From an uncultured Cellvibrio sp. (lineage in GTDB: Bacteria; Pseudomonadota; Gammaproteobacteria; Pseudomonadales; Cellvibrionaceae), in assembly GCA_946482385.1 (NCBI GenBank), contig CAMLRI010000030.1, forward strand, positions 1-10,844: a stretch of DNA of 10,844 nucleotides, in the 5' to 3' direction. The notes beneath the pieces were generated by a model, which saw only the letters and a program-made list of their open reading frames with translations, was not told the origin of the DNA and did not search any database. Both the position numbers and the translations under genes were made by a program. Shown piece after piece: positions 1 through 6,837 of this stretch. Within the stretch, counting starts at the first letter, position 1. Every line of letters begins with the position of its first letter.

Positions 1-582
1 CAGGAAAAAATTGATCTGTTCAACGATCTGGAAGGCGATATCACCCAAATTTTTAAAGGCGAAATTCGCGCTAGCAATATAGTGCAGTATGTTACCCCAA
101 CCTTTGGTGGTGGCTTCTCCGGTTCTGTGGCTTATATCACCAAAGAAAATGAAGATGTTGATAATGGTGTGTCGGCATCTTTTGGTTACACCGGTGAAAT
201 TTTTTATGTCGGCCTGGCAACTGATCGGGATGTGGAAGCGGAAGATGTGGATCTGGTACGTGCAGTAGGCCGTGTCACCCTGGGCTCCGTACAACTCGGT
301 GCTTTGGTTGAGTCTTACGATAATGGTGTTATCGATGAAGAGGGTGCGCTGGTATCTGCACTCTGGAATCTTAACAGCAGTTGGGCGTTAAAAGCTCAGT
401 ACGGCCAGTCGGAAGTGCGCATGGCTGATGGCGAAAGTGCCAGTTTGGGTGCAGATTACAAGGCCACTAAAAATATCACTCTCTACAGTTACTTGACCCA
501 TGTAGAAAATGATACCGAAGTGATGGTAGAAGCCCCGCGTGATGATAATTACATTGGCGTTGGTATGGATATGAAGTTTTAA
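1..582 (+). CDS. Outer-membrane porin, C-terminal part (5' truncated by window edge)
   Basis: The frame is open from base 1 and ends with TAA at 580–582, giving 193 visible residues; the true start lies upstream of the window, and the GTG at 82 is only an internal Val codon. The protein alternates short amphipathic strands with acidic turns and ends in GVGMDMKF. A terminal Phe after a beta-strand is the usual signature recognised by the BAM assembly machinery. The N-terminal visible part (DLFNDLEGDI, then QYVTPTFGGGFSG) matches the pattern of general trimeric Gram-negative porins around the constriction-loop region, where family members typically read 'Y.SP.F.GF.G'. Role: passive diffusion of small solutes across the outer membrane. 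Substrate preference cannot be read from this fragment. A strong terminator follows 38 bases after the stop, so it is the last gene of its transcript. I am confident it is a porin, less so about the subfamily. Confidence 0.85.
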   Translation, partial: QEKIDLFNDLEGDITQIFKGEIRASNIVQYVTPTFGGGFSGSVAYITKENEDVDNGVSASFGYTGEIFYVGLATDRDVEAEDVDLVRAVGRVTLGSVQLGALVESYDNGVIDEEGALVSALWNLNSSWALKAQYGQSEVRMADGESASLGADYKATKNITLYSYLTHVENDTEVMVEAPRDDNYIGVGMDMKF

Positions 583-1180: not shown

Positions 1181-1903
1181 CTATTGATAGTTCACCACCG
1201 CAATATAGTGCATAGGTGTGGCTTTATCCTCGACAAAGCCGGGGATAAATCGCGATTTTTTGAGCGCACTTTCAATCACTTCGGCATCGGCTTTTTTGCG
1301 GGCAGCGGCTTGCAGGGTGCTAACCGATTCCACCGCGCCATCGGCTTCTATGTTGGCCATTACCCGGGTGACTTTGCGGTCGGCAAAAAACATTTTTCCG
1401 TCGCCGCGGCCTTTGGTGGAGTAGTGTACATACCAGTCGTTTTTATCCAGGCGCTCTTGCGGTGCGTAGTAGTTAACACCGTATTGCGCTTGCAGTGTGC
1501 CCAGGTTGGGCAGCATTACAATGGGCTCCTGGGTGCCGGTGATGGAGTAGACCACCCGGAATTGCATGCGCACGGGAATGGCCTGGCCATCAATTTTGGC
1601 GGGTGTAAAGGTGGCAGATTTTAACGCGGTGACTGTGGATGCCTGCATGGATACCAGCGGGCTGTTTTCGTAGCAGGTGACATTGTTCAAGTCGCCAGTG
1701 CTGAGTACATCGGCCTGGCAATAAACTGCAACGGTTTTTACCCCTTCACCAAAACTGCCGGGCAGGTTGATCAGTTTTTTCAGGGTGGCTTCGGCATCGC
1801 CAAATTTGGCAGGGGTGTAGTCTGCAGCAAAACTGGCGACTGAACCCATGGCTGCCATAATCAATAGCGCGCGAACTGCATTTTTGAGTGTATTTTTTTT
1901 CAT
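1181..1903 (-). CDS. Secreted protein with two TonB C-terminal-like modules
   Basis: The product is 240 residues when started at the ATG at 1901–1903. That start has a strong GAGGAG ribosome-binding site at 1911–1916, 7 bases upstream; an in-frame ATG further up overlaps this site and a still longer form would leave the signal peptide internal. Residues 1–26 are a signal peptide (MKKNTLK, hydrophobic core, SFA then ADY). Two segments resemble the C-terminal domain of TonB energy transducers: about 57–120, with ATFTPAKIDGQAIPV and strand VRMQFRVVY, and about 178–239, with IEADGAVESVS, then ALKKSRFIPGF and YIAVVNY. C62 and C77 could form a disulfide in the first module. Unlike TonB, there is no membrane anchor after cleavage and no Pro-rich spacer, so it should be a soluble periplasmic protein that cannot couple to ExbBD. 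It lies downstream of a TonB-dependent receptor but has its own promoter region, with Pho-box-like repeats. The fold assignment is by motif only. Confidence 0.8.
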   Translation of the reverse strand: MKKNTLKNAVRALLIMAAMGSVASFAADYTPAKFGDAEATLKKLINLPGSFGEGVKTVAVYCQADVLSTGDLNNVTCYENSPLVSMQASTVTALKSATFTPAKIDGQAIPVRMQFRVVYSITGTQEPIVMLPNLGTLQAQYGVNYYAPQERLDKNDWYVHYSTKGRGDGKMFFADRKVTRVMANIEADGAVESVSTLQAAARKKADAEVIESALKKSRFIPGFVEDKATPMHYIAVVNYQ

Positions 1904-1996
1904 TGTGATGCTCCTCATGTTAAGAGCGAGTGTGCCATTGTGGGTCAATCGTCGCGCCGGCAGCACAAAAACTGTGCCAGCGCCGATCTTGTTGTT

Positions 1997-2042
1997 AGAT
2001 TAGCATCGGCCTAAGCACAGATATGTGAATATATTGTGACAT
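1997..2042 (-). promoter_or_regulatory. Candidate PhoB-dependent promoter of the TonB-like gene
   Basis: On the minus strand three 7-base units lie at an exact 11-base period: ATGTCAC (2036–2042), TATTCAC (2025–2031) and CTGTGCT (2014–2020), with A/T-only spacers AATA and ATAT. Against the PhoB half-site CTGTCAY they match 6, 4 and 5 of 7. Eleven bases past the last unit is TAATCT (1997–2002), which keeps the first, second and last bases of TATAAT. This is the geometry of PhoB-activated promoters, where the box replaces the -35 element. The match is moderate and the region is A/T-rich, so it could be chance; it gains weight from the much better array in front of the neighbouring operon. Confidence 0.45.
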
Positions 2043-2158: not shown

Positions 2159-2181
2159 AAAAAAAGCCACCCGCAGGTGGC
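2159..2181 (-). terminator. Rho-independent terminator of the TonB-dependent receptor gene
   Basis: A 6-base-pair GC-rich stem (2166–2171 with 2176–2181) has a 4-base loop. It is followed on the minus strand by seven T (A run 2159–2165). It lies about 60 bases past the receptor stop codon and ends the lipoprotein–receptor transcript, so the TonB-like gene beyond it is transcribed separately. Confidence 0.9.
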
Positions 2182-2239
2182 CTCAAAACGCTTGCTTAAT
2201 CGTTTGTCCTTAATTGCCCCTCCTTGAGCCTTGCCTCCT

Positions 2240-4924
2240 TTAAAAGTTGTAAGTCATATCAAAACTGATGCTGGTGCCCACTTCCTGTTTAAGGATGGTG
2301 ACATTGCGTCCGCTGGAGTTGGTTTGGCTGATCTCGCGGTCTTCATCCAACAGGTTGCGCAGTTTAGCTTTGAGCGTTAACTGTTCGGTTGGGTAGTAAG
2401 AGTAGGTGAGATCGAGCGAGCTAAAGGGTTGCTCAAAGGCATCGTCGTGGCCGGTTTCCAGCGCGGCAAAATCCACTTTTTCACCGGCGATGTTGTAACT
2501 GATGGCCGCTGAGTGTTCGCCGTTATCCGAGTCGTAACCCAGTTGTGCGTTAAGCACATAGGGTGACTGGCCGGTCATTTCGCGCTTGGGATTGGTAAAT
2601 CCGGGGGCGCTGGAAACAATTTCCGAATCGCTCAGGGTTAGGTTACCCGAAAGGAAGAAGCCGTAATCCAGGTTCAGCAAGCCCTCCATTTCCACGCCGT
2701 AAATTTCACCCGAGTCGGCATTGTAAAAACTGACAACCAGGTCGAGGTCGGAGCCGGGATTGAGTTTTTGTTCAATGGGATTGGCGATTTCTTTGTAGAA
2801 GAGGCTGAGGCTCAGGTTGTTGCCGCCATCGAAATACCACTCGCCGCGCAGATCGTAGTGATCATTGGTAGAGGCTACCAGGAAGGGGTTGCCCTTTACG
2901 CGACGGTTTAATTCCGGGTCTATGTAGGCGACATCGGAAAGTTCGCGCAAATCTGGGCGGGTGAGTGTTTGGGCGTAACTCAAACGCAATTGGAAAGTCT
3001 CTGTGCCCATGAAGCCATCGTTCATGTAGGTCAGGGCGGCAGATGGATACCAGTCGTCGTGGCCAGTAGCGTAGGTTTGCTCCGGGTCCTGCAAATCTTC
3101 GATGAGTTGTTGCAGTGTGACGCCGCTGTAATCCAGTAGGTCGATGGGCAGCAGGGCTGTGCGGAAATCTTCGTAGCGTGCGCCCAGGTTGATGCGCCAG
3201 CTTTCGTTGAAGGTGGCGTCGATCATGCCGTAGAAAGCATCGGTGATTTGCCCGGCAATATAGCTCTCGGTGCCAAAGCCGCGGCTCATGGTGGCTTCGA
3301 AGGCGTTGTTGAGATTGTTGATATTGCTATCGCTAAACACATCACCGGGTGTGCCCAACAGATAATCGCCGCCGCCTACGCCAATCAGGGCGGTGTAGCC
3401 ATAATAGGCGCGCGCTTTGTCGTTGTAGCTGTAGCCGCCACTCAGTTCAACATCGGCGTTATCAAAAGCCAGGGGCAGGGTGAGATCCCAACCGTAGCTG
3501 GTCACTTCATCTTGCAGGCTCAGGTAAGCAAATTGCGCAGAGGAGTTGGCGGCGATACGGGTGCTGAGAATTTCACCGCTGTCCGGGTCGATACGGTTGT
3601 CGGCAGCGATATTGCTGGCGCCAGGGATGTTGGTTTCAACCGTGGAATCTGAGTAAAACCAATCCACGGTTATTTCGCCCAGTGTGTTGCCAGCCAGTTG
3701 ATCGAAACGGTGTTCACCCAGAACTTGTGCCACCTCCAGTTCGCGATCCTGGTAGCGGGTTTCGTAGGTGACATTCTGGTCGCCTTCGGCCTGGCTGGTG
3801 TTGCTGTCGTAAGAGTAGGTGATAACGGCATCATCGCTCTGGTTGGTGATCAGCATGTAGCTGGCATCCAGTTCGTGCATGTCCTGGTAGTTGATACCTA
3901 TACCGAAAGAGGCGAGCTCTTTAGTGTCTTCCTGGGTGCGTTTGATCTCGGCGTATTCCACATCGGGGGCGCCTACACCCTGGCGTTGCTGGTGCTTGTT
4001 GCGCCATTCGGTTTTGTGCGAAAGGTTGATGATGCTGCCCAGGGTCCAGTCGTCGCCCAGGTCCCAGGAATTGCCCAGGGCCAAAGCGCCATTTTGGTCG
4101 AGGGGGGAATCATCCCGCTCAATATCCACATCGCGATTGATCGACAAAATTAAATCGCGGTTGATGCGGATGGCTTCAGCCGCTTGTTCCGGGGTGACGC
4201 TGTTGTCCACTTCCGTGCTGAGGATGCGGCGAATACCGCTGAGATTGATATTGCCCTGGTAGGTGTCGAGGGCGCTATCAATGGCCTTGGGTAAGCCGGA
4301 AGATTTATCGCCACCGGCATAGCTGAGGTCGCCATCGCCATTGGTGGTGTTAGTGCCTGTACCCAGGGTGAGGCTAAAAACAAAATCATCGGGAACGCTT
4401 TTGGTGCGAATATCCACATTGCCGCCGCCGAAGTTGGCGGGCAGGTTGGCCGAATAAGCCTTTTGAATTTTAAGGCTCTCGACAATGGACGAGGGAATTA
4501 TGTCCAGTGGCAATACGTTGCGGGTCAGCTCGGGGGAGGGAACCTGGGCACCGTTTAATTGCACACTGGCGTAGCGCTCACCCAGGCCGCGCACATACAC
4601 ATATTTGCCTTGGTTGAGGGTGATACCTGGCACGCGGGTAAGGGCGATAGCAACGTTGGAGTCGCCGGTGCGGGCGATTTGGTCGGCGCCCATCAGGTCG
4701 GCGGCGAAGGCGTCTTCCAAGCGCTCTTGCATAATGGATTGGGCGCCGCTTTGCTGGCGACCTATAACAATCATTTCTTCCATGGCGGGCGCTTCAATAT
4801 TAAGCGGCGCTATGGGGGCTGGCTGGATTTCTTCCTGGGCCAGCAGCTGGCTGGAGATCAGGCTCAGCGAGGCGGCAGACATGGCCAGGAACAGCTTGTG
4901 TCTGGTGCTTGGTAACTTTTGCAT
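2240..4924 (-). CDS. TonB-dependent outer-membrane receptor
   Basis: The product is 894 residues and forms a gated outer-membrane transporter that uses proton-motive force relayed by TonB–ExbBD. The start ATG is at 4922–4924, with an AAGG site about 8 bases upstream. Residues 1–29 are a signal peptide (cleavage near LLA, before QEE). A TonB-box-like segment EEMIVIG lies at 49–55. The plug domain runs about 60–178, with VRGLGERY and SVQLNG at 111–125 and the conserved end NFGGGNVDIRTKS. The rest is a 22-strand-type barrel with long Asp/Asn/Tyr-rich loops, ending SFDMTYNF with a terminal Phe. There is no STN signalling domain and no carboxypeptidase-like N-terminal domain, so it should be a transporter only, without sigma/anti-sigma signalling. 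It lies 100 bases downstream of the lipoprotein gene on the same strand, a hairpin between them, and has its own terminator. The ligand is not readable from sequence. The Pho-type regulatory array ahead of the operon points to a phosphorus source rather than iron. Confidence 0.95.
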   Translation of the reverse strand: MQKLPSTRHKLFLAMSAASLSLISSQLLAQEEIQPAPIAPLNIEAPAMEEMIVIGRQQSGAQSIMQERLEDAFAADLMGADQIARTGDSNVAIALTRVPGITLNQGKYVYVRGLGERYASVQLNGAQVPSPELTRNVLPLDIIPSSIVESLKIQKAYSANLPANFGGGNVDIRTKSVPDDFVFSLTLGTGTNTTNGDGDLSYAGGDKSSGLPKAIDSALDTYQGNINLSGIRRILSTEVDNSVTPEQAAEAIRINRDLILSINRDVDIERDDSPLDQNGALALGNSWDLGDDWTLGSIINLSHKTEWRNKHQQRQGVGAPDVEYAEIKRTQEDTKELASFGIGINYQDMHELDASYMLITNQSDDAVITYSYDSNTSQAEGDQNVTYETRYQDRELEVAQVLGEHRFDQLAGNTLGEITVDWFYSDSTVETNIPGASNIAADNRIDPDSGEILSTRIAANSSAQFAYLSLQDEVTSYGWDLTLPLAFDNADVELSGGYSYNDKARAYYGYTALIGVGGGDYLLGTPGDVFSDSNINNLNNAFEATMSRGFGTESYIAGQITDAFYGMIDATFNESWRINLGARYEDFRTALLPIDLLDYSGVTLQQLIEDLQDPEQTYATGHDDWYPSAALTYMNDGFMGTETFQLRLSYAQTLTRPDLRELSDVAYIDPELNRRVKGNPFLVASTNDHYDLRGEWYFDGGNNLSLSLFYKEIANPIEQKLNPGSDLDLVVSFYNADSGEIYGVEMEGLLNLDYGFFLSGNLTLSDSEIVSSAPGFTNPKREMTGQSPYVLNAQLGYDSDNGEHSAAISYNIAGEKVDFAALETGHDDAFEQPFSSLDLTYSYYPTEQLTLKAKLRNLLDEDREISQTNSSGRNVTILKQEVGTSISFDMTYNF

Positions 4925-4962: not shown

Positions 4963-4990
4963 AAGAGAGGCGCCCTGGGGCGCCTCTTTT
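4963..4990 (-). terminator. Intergenic hairpin, possible attenuator between lipoprotein and receptor genes
   Basis: A very stable stem (8 perfect pairs, 4967–4974 with 4979–4986, extended by A·T and G·T pairs to 4963–4990) has a 4-base loop. It lies between the lipoprotein stop (5025) and the receptor start (4924). On the minus strand the 3' arm ends in a mixed C/T stretch, not a clean T run, so it is a weak terminator at best. It may allow partial read-through and set the ratio of the two products, or protect the upstream mRNA from 3' exonucleases. The clean T run is on the plus strand, where no gene reads into it. Confidence 0.6.
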
Positions 4991-5024: not shown

Positions 5025-6689
5025 TTAGTTGCTGCTGCCCAGGCCGACAGTCCAGCCTTCAACCCAGTCGCTGCCATTTTTAACAGCGCCGATGAAATCC
5101 ACTTCGTCGAAGAAATCGTTGGTGCCAGCTACAGGTGCAGTGGTGGTAGAGGCTTCTTCAGACAGGGTGGTGACATCAAACACAGTCACGTTAATGACGT
5201 TGGTGTTGCCATCGGCCATGCTGGGCGCGGTGATGTAAGCGCGTGGGTTGGTTGCCAAATCGGTGATGATGGTGGCGGGCAATGTGCCGGCCGGTGAGCT
5301 GGAATCCAGTACCAGGTTGTTGTAAGCCGGAGTGATGAACCAATCCTTCAACACAAAGCCCGCATTGCTGGGGTTAACGGTGCCGGTTTTGATGGCTTCG
5401 GTACAGGCAACCAGGTTGCTCTTGGCGGCAGAGATGCCTGCTTCGATATGGTCAATAGTGGCTGGGCCTTCGGTGTCATCCACTTCAAAACATTCGTTAG
5501 AGGCCATGCCGCTGGCATTGGAGGTAATGATCGAGTTGTAAATTTCGAACTGGGTGCCTTCGCGGAACAGTGGGCCTTCGGAGTCATCTTTGGGCGAGGG
5601 TATATCGCCCATGTTTTTATCCACGTTGGAGGTAATACAGGTGAGGTTGGAGAAACGTGGGTGAGTCATGGGTGTGATGTCATCCGCGCGGCTGCCACCG
5701 GTGTTGTCGCCTTCAATACAGCGGCCGCCACCTGATGGGTTGATCGCCAGGGCGAATTGGATGTTGCCCACATAGCCATCGGCAAAGTCGTAGGAGTCGT
5801 CGGCAATGTTCACGGCAACCACGTGTTTCAGGTTGACCGCACCGCCGAACATTTCAAAGCCGTCATCGCGGGTAGAGTAGACTTGTACGTGGTCAACTAC
5901 GGTGTTGGAGCCAACGGTGTACAGGGTCAAACCGTTGAGTTCGTTGCCATCAACCACTTCGTAACCGGCGTGTTTGATCACTACATAGCGCAGTACGCCA
6001 GAGTTGTCTTCGTTGTCATCGCCACCGTAGGTGCCTGGGCGGCCTTCGGTAAGAACGTGGCAATTGGCTGCGTCGCTACATTTATTGGTGATGCCCTGGC
6101 CGAGAATTTGTACGCCGCCCCAGAGGCCGCGGTCGGATTCGGTAGCTTCGCCTTCAATCAAATCTTTTACCGCGCTGAATACAATCGGTGCTTCTTTGGT
6201 GCCTTCGGCAAAAATTTGTGAGCCGCGGGCAATGCGCACATAGTCAACCGGGTTGCTAAACGCCAGTTTGGCGCCGGCTTCAATAAACAGAATGGGGCCT
6301 GCACCAGCGGCGGGTACAGTGGCGCCAGCGGCGGCTTCATCGGCGTCTACGTCGTCGCCCACAAACAGGCTGTCTTCAAAAATGTGTACGCCACCATTGG
6401 GCAGGGCTTCCAGGGTGAGGTCTACTGTTAGTGGGCGGGTGTCGCTCACAAAGGCCACGCTGTAAGTACAGTTGTTGCCGCTTTGTACGCCCTGAATGTT
6501 TTGGCCGGAGAGTTCGTAAGCCGCACAGGGGTTGGTTGCCGCCGATGAACTGCTGCCACCAGAGTTGTTGGTGGTGTTGTTATTGGAGTTGCTAACGGAG
6601 TTGCTGGGGTTCAGGTTGATATCGCTACCACCGCACGCGGCCAGGGTTGCTGCCAACAGGTTCAATGCAAACAAGTTTCTGATATTCAT
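5025..6689 (-). CDS. Outer-membrane lipoprotein with beta-helix-like motifs, receptor partner
   Basis: The product is 554 residues. The N-terminus has a lipobox LAAC with the lipidated Cys at 19; Gly-Gly at +2/+3, not Asp, favours sorting to the outer membrane. Residues 20–53 are a low-complexity Asn/Ser/Gly tether. The folded part has an Asp-rich loop (FVGDDVDADEA, about 109–119), then beta-helix-type turns: AEGTKEAPIVFSA (161–173), RGLWGGVQILGQG (187–199), RDDGFEMFGG (274–283) and DDSYDFADGYVG (297–308). The C-terminus (DFFDEVDFIGAV, then DWVEGWTVG, 525–549) is a closing motif I know from similar extracellular lipoproteins of unassigned function that often lie beside TonB-dependent receptors. 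Eight mature cysteines fall in nearby pairs (55/74, 204/210, 324/351, 400/429). The ATG at 6687–6689 has only a weak AGAG site about 10 bases upstream. It is the first gene of the operon with the receptor, preceded by the Pho-box array. It probably captures substrate at the surface; the ligand is unknown. Confidence 0.88.
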   Translation of the reverse strand: MNIRNLFALNLLAATLAACGGSDINLNPSNSVSNSNNNTTNNSGGSSSSAATNPCAAYELSGQNIQGVQSGNNCTYSVAFVSDTRPLTVDLTLEALPNGGVHIFEDSLFVGDDVDADEAAAGATVPAAGAGPILFIEAGAKLAFSNPVDYVRIARGSQIFAEGTKEAPIVFSAVKDLIEGEATESDRGLWGGVQILGQGITNKCSDAANCHVLTEGRPGTYGGDDNEDNSGVLRYVVIKHAGYEVVDGNELNGLTLYTVGSNTVVDHVQVYSTRDDGFEMFGGAVNLKHVVAVNIADDSYDFADGYVGNIQFALAINPSGGGRCIEGDNTGGSRADDITPMTHPRFSNLTCITSNVDKNMGDIPSPKDDSEGPLFREGTQFEIYNSIITSNASGMASNECFEVDDTEGPATIDHIEAGISAAKSNLVACTEAIKTGTVNPSNAGFVLKDWFITPAYNNLVLDSSSPAGTLPATIITDLATNPRAYITAPSMADGNTNVINVTVFDVTTLSEEASTTTAPVAGTNDFFDEVDFIGAVKNGSDWVEGWTVGLGSSN

Positions 6690-6786
6690 GAGTTTTAACT
6701 CTCTATCTAGTAGGTGAATTGAAATCGGCCAACGCGGTTACCCCGCATTTGTGGGTGCTATCTTTGATGACAAATGTGAAGCTTGG

Positions 6787-6837
6787 GCTACAGAAAAATG
6801 AAAGTTTGGTTGCAGTTTGGTGGCGGTTAGATGACAG
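6787..6837 (-). promoter_or_regulatory. Array of five Pho-box-like direct repeats (candidate PhoB site)
   Basis: On the minus strand, in the direction of the lipoprotein–receptor operon, five 7-base units lie at an exact 11-base period: CTGTCAT (6831–6837), CCGCCAC (6820–6826), CTGCAAC (6809–6815), CTTTCAT (6798–6804) and CTGTAGC (6787–6793). They match the PhoB half-site CTGTCAY at 7, 5, 5, 6 and 5 of 7 positions, 28 of 35 in total by hand count. The spacers CTAA, CAAA, CAAA and TTTT are A/T-rich, as in the known 7+4+7 Pho box. A sixth, weaker unit GCTTCAC (6776–6782, 4 of 7) continues the phase. The 8-mer ACCAAACT also recurs exactly 11 bases apart within the array. The array ends about 100 bases upstream of the ATG. 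The -10 element is not evident. Binding by PhoB is inferred from known box architecture. Confidence 0.75.

Follow-up and report, generated by a model that had tools for sequence, protein, structure and literature searches.

How should one read a TonB-dependent receptor gene, by default annotated as an importer of iron or sugar, when a regular series of short repeats lies in front of the operon to which it appears to belong? The question is raised by a 10,844-nucleotide stretch of DNA from an uncultured Cellvibrio sp. (contig CAMLRI010000030.1), the whole of which is called the window here. Its minus strand carries a lipoprotein gene, then the receptor gene, then a TonB-like gene; the opposite flank of the lipoprotein gene carries MlaA and PilZ genes, and beyond these are genes that we take to encode a ferredoxin and then MutS. 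An earlier note had seen, upstream of the lipoprotein and receptor genes, five 7-base units that resemble the PhoB half-site CTGTCAY, more than a Pho box usually holds, and had proposed that the receptor is controlled by phosphate starvation. The promoter region contains the following features.

6776 to 6837, minus strand: candidate PhoB-box array, six 7-base units with an 11-base period (unit scan; alignment with six other Cellvibrio-type loci)
6757 to 6762, minus strand: weak -10-like element GATAGC, beginning nine bases past the last 11-base unit (sequence reading and alignments)

Read on the minus strand from 6837 down to 6772, the units, each followed by its spacer, are CTGTCAT ctaa, CCGCCAC caaa, CTGCAAC caaa, CTTTCAT tttt, CTGTAGC ccaa and GCTTCAC attt. 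Rescoring confirmed the description given before: the five units of 6787-6837 agree with CTGTCAY in 28 of their 35 bases and have a period of exactly 11, the first of them (6831-6837) is perfect, and a weaker sixth unit (6776-6782, 4 of 7) continues the phase and brings the total to 32 of 42. None of 2000 intergenic and none of 200 whole-window first-order Markov simulations reached 28 of 35. On both strands of the whole window, the array is the top one whether two, three, four, five or six units at 11-base spacing are counted; the runner-up among non-overlapping five-unit arrays has 22 of 35 at 1992-2042 (minus strand), a stretch that contains the PhoB-like site described below for the TonB-like gene, and in the array's own intergenic region periods of 8-10 and 12-15 bases give at most 19 of 35. 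A Pho box that activates lies about ten bases upstream of the -10 and replaces the -35 element. We infer a -10 at GATAGC and no more than infer it, because only three of its six bases match TATAAT; at its relative position in the alignment, most Gilvimarinus loci have TATAGG.

How far does the array resemble the boxes that relatives carry in front of genes of the Pho system itself? Among the genomes of the 51 loci described below, 20, all from relatives, were searched; PhoB is above its curated cut-off in all 20 and PstS in 15. A two-unit site of at least 11 of 14 matches lies in 12 of 15 pstS and 13 of 20 phoB upstream regions (an example upstream of a Cellvibrio pstS is CTGTCATTTATCTGTCAT) and is lacking in 3 of the 15 and 7 of the 20, while upstream of other response regulators none of five regions rose above simulations. 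These boxes have the same CTGTCAY units, A/T-rich 4-base spacers and 11-base period as the array. A matrix was made from 25 two-unit pstS/phoB promoter sites, the relatives' own, with lipoprotein promoters kept out of the training and p values per position taken from 1.37 million background positions. For 6820-6837 it gives 15.4 (p=1.2e-5 per position), which is above background, as a PhoB site would be; since its training sites were chosen by likeness to CTGTCAY, the matrix is not independent of that consensus.

The relatives' loci, 51 in number, come from one scan with a 30-sequence profile, and 49 lipoprotein upstream regions, those of 48 loci and of the window, were tested. In a phylum-wide draw, relatives of the lipoprotein were present in 53 of 398 genomes. 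Four-unit arrays with the 11-base period and 18-23 of 28 matches, a score that 0 to 3 simulations out of 300 also gave, were found in 39 of the 49 regions, the window included, so that the repeats seen in one sequence turn out to be conserved upstream of related lipoprotein genes. The ten regions with no four-unit array above simulations are of two kinds: L010, L013, L018, L019, L020, L022 and L037 have 14-17 of 28, which 18 to 268 simulations out of 300 also gave, and all seven except L022 pass the two-unit matrix; L048, L049 and L051 are very distant relatives. By the matrix, a site with p<=1e-4 lies upstream of the lipoprotein gene in 44 of 49 regions, again including the window, or in 44 of 46 if the three very distant loci are set aside, against a chance rate of about 3.5% of 350-base regions. 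Those missed are L022, L031 (narrowly, p=1.01e-4), L048, L049 and L051. Still farther away, among 40 distant loci, 12 are without a called lipoprotein ORF, and in 23 of the other 28 a PhoB-like site is present (p<=1e-4). Upstream of other genes the matrix found sites before 0 of 46 receptor genes, 0 of 7 PilZ genes, 0 of 4 ferredoxin genes and 1 of 6 ORF145 genes; three of seven MlaA upstream regions do score, each within the intergenic stretch that the MlaA and lipoprotein genes have in common. Among the aligned Cellvibrio sequences, mean column identity is 0.83 in the array (0.79 in units 1-2, 0.86 in units 3-6) versus 0.51 in the 100 bases upstream; between the array and the -10-like element it is 0.88, in the leader that follows 0.78, and the 40-base window of highest identity is 6768-6807. 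Conservation and the PhoB matrix, two checks that might each have refuted it, both support the proposed phosphate-starvation control of the receptor operon.

The earlier remark on unusual length also holds. Unit scoring gives six in-phase units for the window and for six Cellvibrio-type loci, against one to three for the 35 promoters of pstS and phoB; Marinagarivorans and Exilibacterium have five, Gilvimarinus and Zhongshania four, and the named Pseudohongiella one or two. At least four units are present in 28 of 46 lipoprotein promoters (a count that includes L031, whose four units are equalled in 16 of 100 simulations) and in 0 of 15 pstS and 0 of 20 phoB promoters; since the loci are related, these counts are not independent. 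While the boxes of pstS and phoB are usually strong, those of the Cellvibrio-type lipoprotein promoters are mostly weaker: the units of the array have 2, 3, 5, 6, 7 and 12 bits, and the two-unit pstS/phoB sites mostly 7-16.

What do the genes behind this promoter encode?

5025 to 6689, minus strand: ElpS-kind lipoprotein, 554 amino acids (homology, lipobox by eye, structure model)
4966 to 4987, minus strand: stem-loop separating the lipoprotein gene from the receptor gene, with no clear U-run (folding pattern; comparable ones in relatives)
2240 to 4924, minus strand: TonB-dependent receptor, 894 amino acids (Pfam Plug and TonB_dep_Rec_b-barrel; adjacency in relatives)
2163 to 2184, minus strand: terminator-like hairpin after the receptor gene (hairpin pattern search)

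The lipoprotein has a lipobox, identified by eye, whose Cys19 is invariant across 36 aligned sequences. Its structure model (mean pLDDT 87) is a predicted beta-helix by structural neighbours, and in the Pfam copy used it matches no family at E<=1, those of SusD included. Its best 120 of 1111 homologues, of which the closest is 96% identical and those named Cellvibrio 58-78%, are mostly named hypothetical, and all 120 bear the precomputed label PF28492. The same label is on all of the best 120 of 5532 matches of the distant relative L161, Caulobacter, Phenylobacterium and Hyphomonas proteins among them. Compared directly, the lipoprotein is 32% identical to a 486-amino-acid Caulobacter protein over nearly the full length (E 4e-64), and a further comparison gave 41% identity over 265 residues; both comparisons were with homologous proteins from Caulobacter strains other than the one that carries CC0170. 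On this homology the lipoprotein is kin of the ElpS-kind lipoproteins of Caulobacter, which had not been part of the earlier note, as had neither the stem-loop after the lipoprotein gene nor the conserved PhoB-like site that the TonB-like gene has of its own.

The kinship matters for what is described in Caulobacter crescentus. In the portions of PMC2996285 that concern it, ElpS (CC0170) is made under phosphate starvation, is released via the type II secretion system (T2SS) and stimulates extracellular phosphatase activity, and the neighbours of its gene are the TonB receptor gene cc0171 and T2SS genes. Thus the adjacency of lipoprotein and TonB receptor and the link to phosphate starvation are the same as proposed here. 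The sections of PMC11208175 on the Caulobacter PhoB regulon include TonB receptors and T2SS in it. According to the same portions of PMC2996285, cc0171 is constitutive, and therefore co-regulation of lipoprotein and receptor is not universal; unlike that system, the window has an apparent single promoter with a long PhoB array for both genes. It also differs in that the TonB-like gene follows and no T2SS genes adjoin the lipoprotein-receptor pair in the window. T2SS genes beside such a pair are reported for some species only and so are no defining mark of the type. Here gspE and secretin patterns are both present in 10 of the 47 loci L001-L047, mostly Pseudohongiella and other gammaproteobacteria, in the order lipoprotein, receptor, further ORF, secretin, GspE, which is the elpS-cc0171 order as described in PMC2996285. 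By Pfam, the three genes after the pair in L004 and L161 are T2SS C, D and E, and T2SS genes follow the pair also in a Caulobacteraceae-like genome.

Similar pairs are known farther away. In the relevant parts of PMC8115612, Flavobacterium lipoprotein-TBDT pairs are induced on phosphate depletion, and the FI/FII lipoproteins of F. johnsoniae, each adjoining its TBDT, are 31-36% identical over about half the length to a low-phosphate-inducible Caulobacter lipoprotein, which we take to be ElpS. These pairs differ in belonging to Bacteroidetes and in having other neighbours; their likeness to the window is taken from the description in that paper, and the term 'Pho box' is absent from its main text. 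SusCD/PusCD systems, some of them induced by phosphate starvation (in the same parts of PMC8115612), likewise combine an outer-membrane TonB receptor with a surface lipoprotein, but the lipoprotein of the window is a predicted beta-helix without a SusD-family match.

A TonB receptor gene adjoins the lipoprotein gene in the window and in 47 of 47 loci (L001-L047), its ORF being cut by the contig end in some and seemingly split into two in L003 (3859-6512) and L015 (3704-6335), both metagenome-assembled. In the distant loci it is adjacent in 28 of the 28 with a called lipoprotein ORF, on the other side in L167. Among these distant loci (L137-L169), 20 of the 28 called lipoprotein ORFs are of double length, 899-969 amino acids, with tandem matches. 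The receptor itself has hits to general families of TonB receptors, among them one for hemoglobin/transferrin, all under cut-off; its best NCBIfam profile is TIGR01782 with 222 bits, the cut-off being 310.

Between the two genes, a stem-loop 12-80 bases past the lipoprotein stop (within the first 110 bases) is found after 48 of 48 lipoprotein genes; those in relatives are comparable, with different sequences and mostly without a U-run. It reaches -14 kcal/mol or lower in 45 of the 48, and only one of these 45 has a U-rich tail, whereas the same two shares are 79% of 47 and 32% after receptor genes and 42% of 405 and 15% after other ORFs. A strong stem so rarely followed by a U-rich tail is, in most loci, no plain terminator. 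The hairpin after the receptor gene is not significant alone, because the window has 18 such patterns versus 15.7 expected from shuffles.

Behind this hairpin comes the next gene, and at the edge of the window a porin.

2025 to 2042, minus strand: PhoB-like site before the TonB-like gene, ATGTCACAATATATTCAC (matrix score 8.3, p=8.3e-5)
1181 to 1903, minus strand: TonB-like protein, 240 amino acids (profiles, conservation, model)
1 to 582, plus strand: 3' end of a porin gene (Porin_4 by Pfam), whose own upstream region lies beyond the window

The TonB-like protein has, by eye, a signal peptide and no membrane anchor, followed by two TonB C-terminal-like domains (Pfam TonB_C at 63-120; TIGR01352 best at 180-226). 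Its model has a pLDDT of 76, and Foldseek relates it to TonB domains at no better than E 0.01. Two cysteines, Cys62 and Cys77, do not vary among 14 sequences. Each of the 13 other loci with the gene has a site 117-172 bases before the start codon; with that of the window, 13 of the 14 are at p<=1e-4 and that of L025 is at 1.3e-4, and in L011 the best-scoring site is a different one. Of seven porin genes close to the relatives' operons, six carry PhoB-like sites (p<=1e-5); of two porins of about 30% identity, that of L031 has the site and that of L035 does not.

How might such an operon work? Judged from the repeats and their conservation, the array at 6776-6837 is very probably a PhoB-box array that places the lipoprotein-receptor operon in the Pho regulon. 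At low phosphate, phosphorylated PhoB would align head to tail along the 11-base units and recruit RNA polymerase, substituting for a -35 element. A single mRNA might then cover lipoprotein and receptor, with the intervening stem-loop favouring the lipoprotein part. The beta-helix lipoprotein, at the cell surface or released, may capture or help to process a phosphorus-containing compound, whose product the TonB-dependent receptor would take inward, and the TonB-like protein, from its own PhoB-like promoter, may help to couple or energise the receptor. In view of the kinship of the lipoprotein and of the regulation, it is likely that the operon serves phosphorus scavenging rather than uptake of iron or sugar. 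The weakness of most of the six units makes it probable that the lipoprotein promoter requires more PhoB-P than that of pstS and has a steeper response. We suggest further, tentatively and as something possible rather than probable, that four to six mostly weak units form a high-threshold, steep switch that fires in deep starvation only, after pstS, and that through the stem-loop the lipoprotein is made in large excess over the receptor.

Could the array instead belong to another regulator? A different member of the OmpR/PhoB family with an 11-base direct-repeat site would make the operon answer a different signal; there are 31 to 87 matches to PhoB-like regulators per genome, the matrix may not set PhoB apart from its paralogues, and some units, CTTTCAT, CTGAAAC and TATTCAC among them, deviate from the core. 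Yet the matrix was built on the relatives' own pstS/phoB promoters, its site recurs at the TonB-like gene and at most nearby porins, and the related lipoproteins of Caulobacter (PMC2996285) and Flavobacterium (PMC8115612) are, in the parts drawn on above, phosphate-starvation proteins; we hold this reading to be improbable. Hardly credible is a generic receptor system for iron or glycans whose repeats are an incidental AT-rich repeat: the general TonB families that the receptor matches under cut-off would fit it, as would the beta-helix fold, common to many polysaccharide enzymes, but not one of 2000 simulations produced the array, which is moreover conserved across genera.

Another possibility accepts PhoB and changes the sign, the extra units repressing or fine-tuning instead of activating. 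The E. coli phoB promoter has an additional, auto-repressing PhoB site, as stated in the part of PMC6194859 concerned, and the array is longer than the two units that suffice at pstS. Against this, the related lipoproteins are induced by phosphate starvation (PMC2996285, PMC8115612; same portions). In both the window and Gilvimarinus, nine bases lie between the end of the last 11-base unit and the -10-like element, which is the activating arrangement, and a repressing or fine-tuning role seems unlikely to us. We thus keep to PhoB as an activator of the lipoprotein-receptor operon. Under this reading, a regulatory mark conserved in several gammaproteobacterial genera would assign a receptor-lipoprotein family to phosphorus acquisition, and the locus ties a mostly 'hypothetical' lipoprotein family to the ElpS system of Caulobacter. 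Few strong boxes at pstS and phoB versus many weak ones at the lipoprotein operon also make the relation between box number and starvation threshold testable with reporters.

Two further PhoB-like sites of the window are on the plus strand. One at 1715-1732 (score 10.9), inside the TonB-like gene on the opposite strand, is probably due to chance. The other, TTGTCATAAATTTGCAAC at 2124-2141, is with a score of 23.1 the strongest of the whole window; a third partial unit and TATAAA come next, and it is directed into the receptor gene at its 3' end. In the same interval of 13 other loci, an antisense site is strong only in L003 (18.6) and weak in L014 (7.1), and since no more than one of the 13 has a strong one, that of the window may be an antisense promoter or a relic one, specific to the strain.
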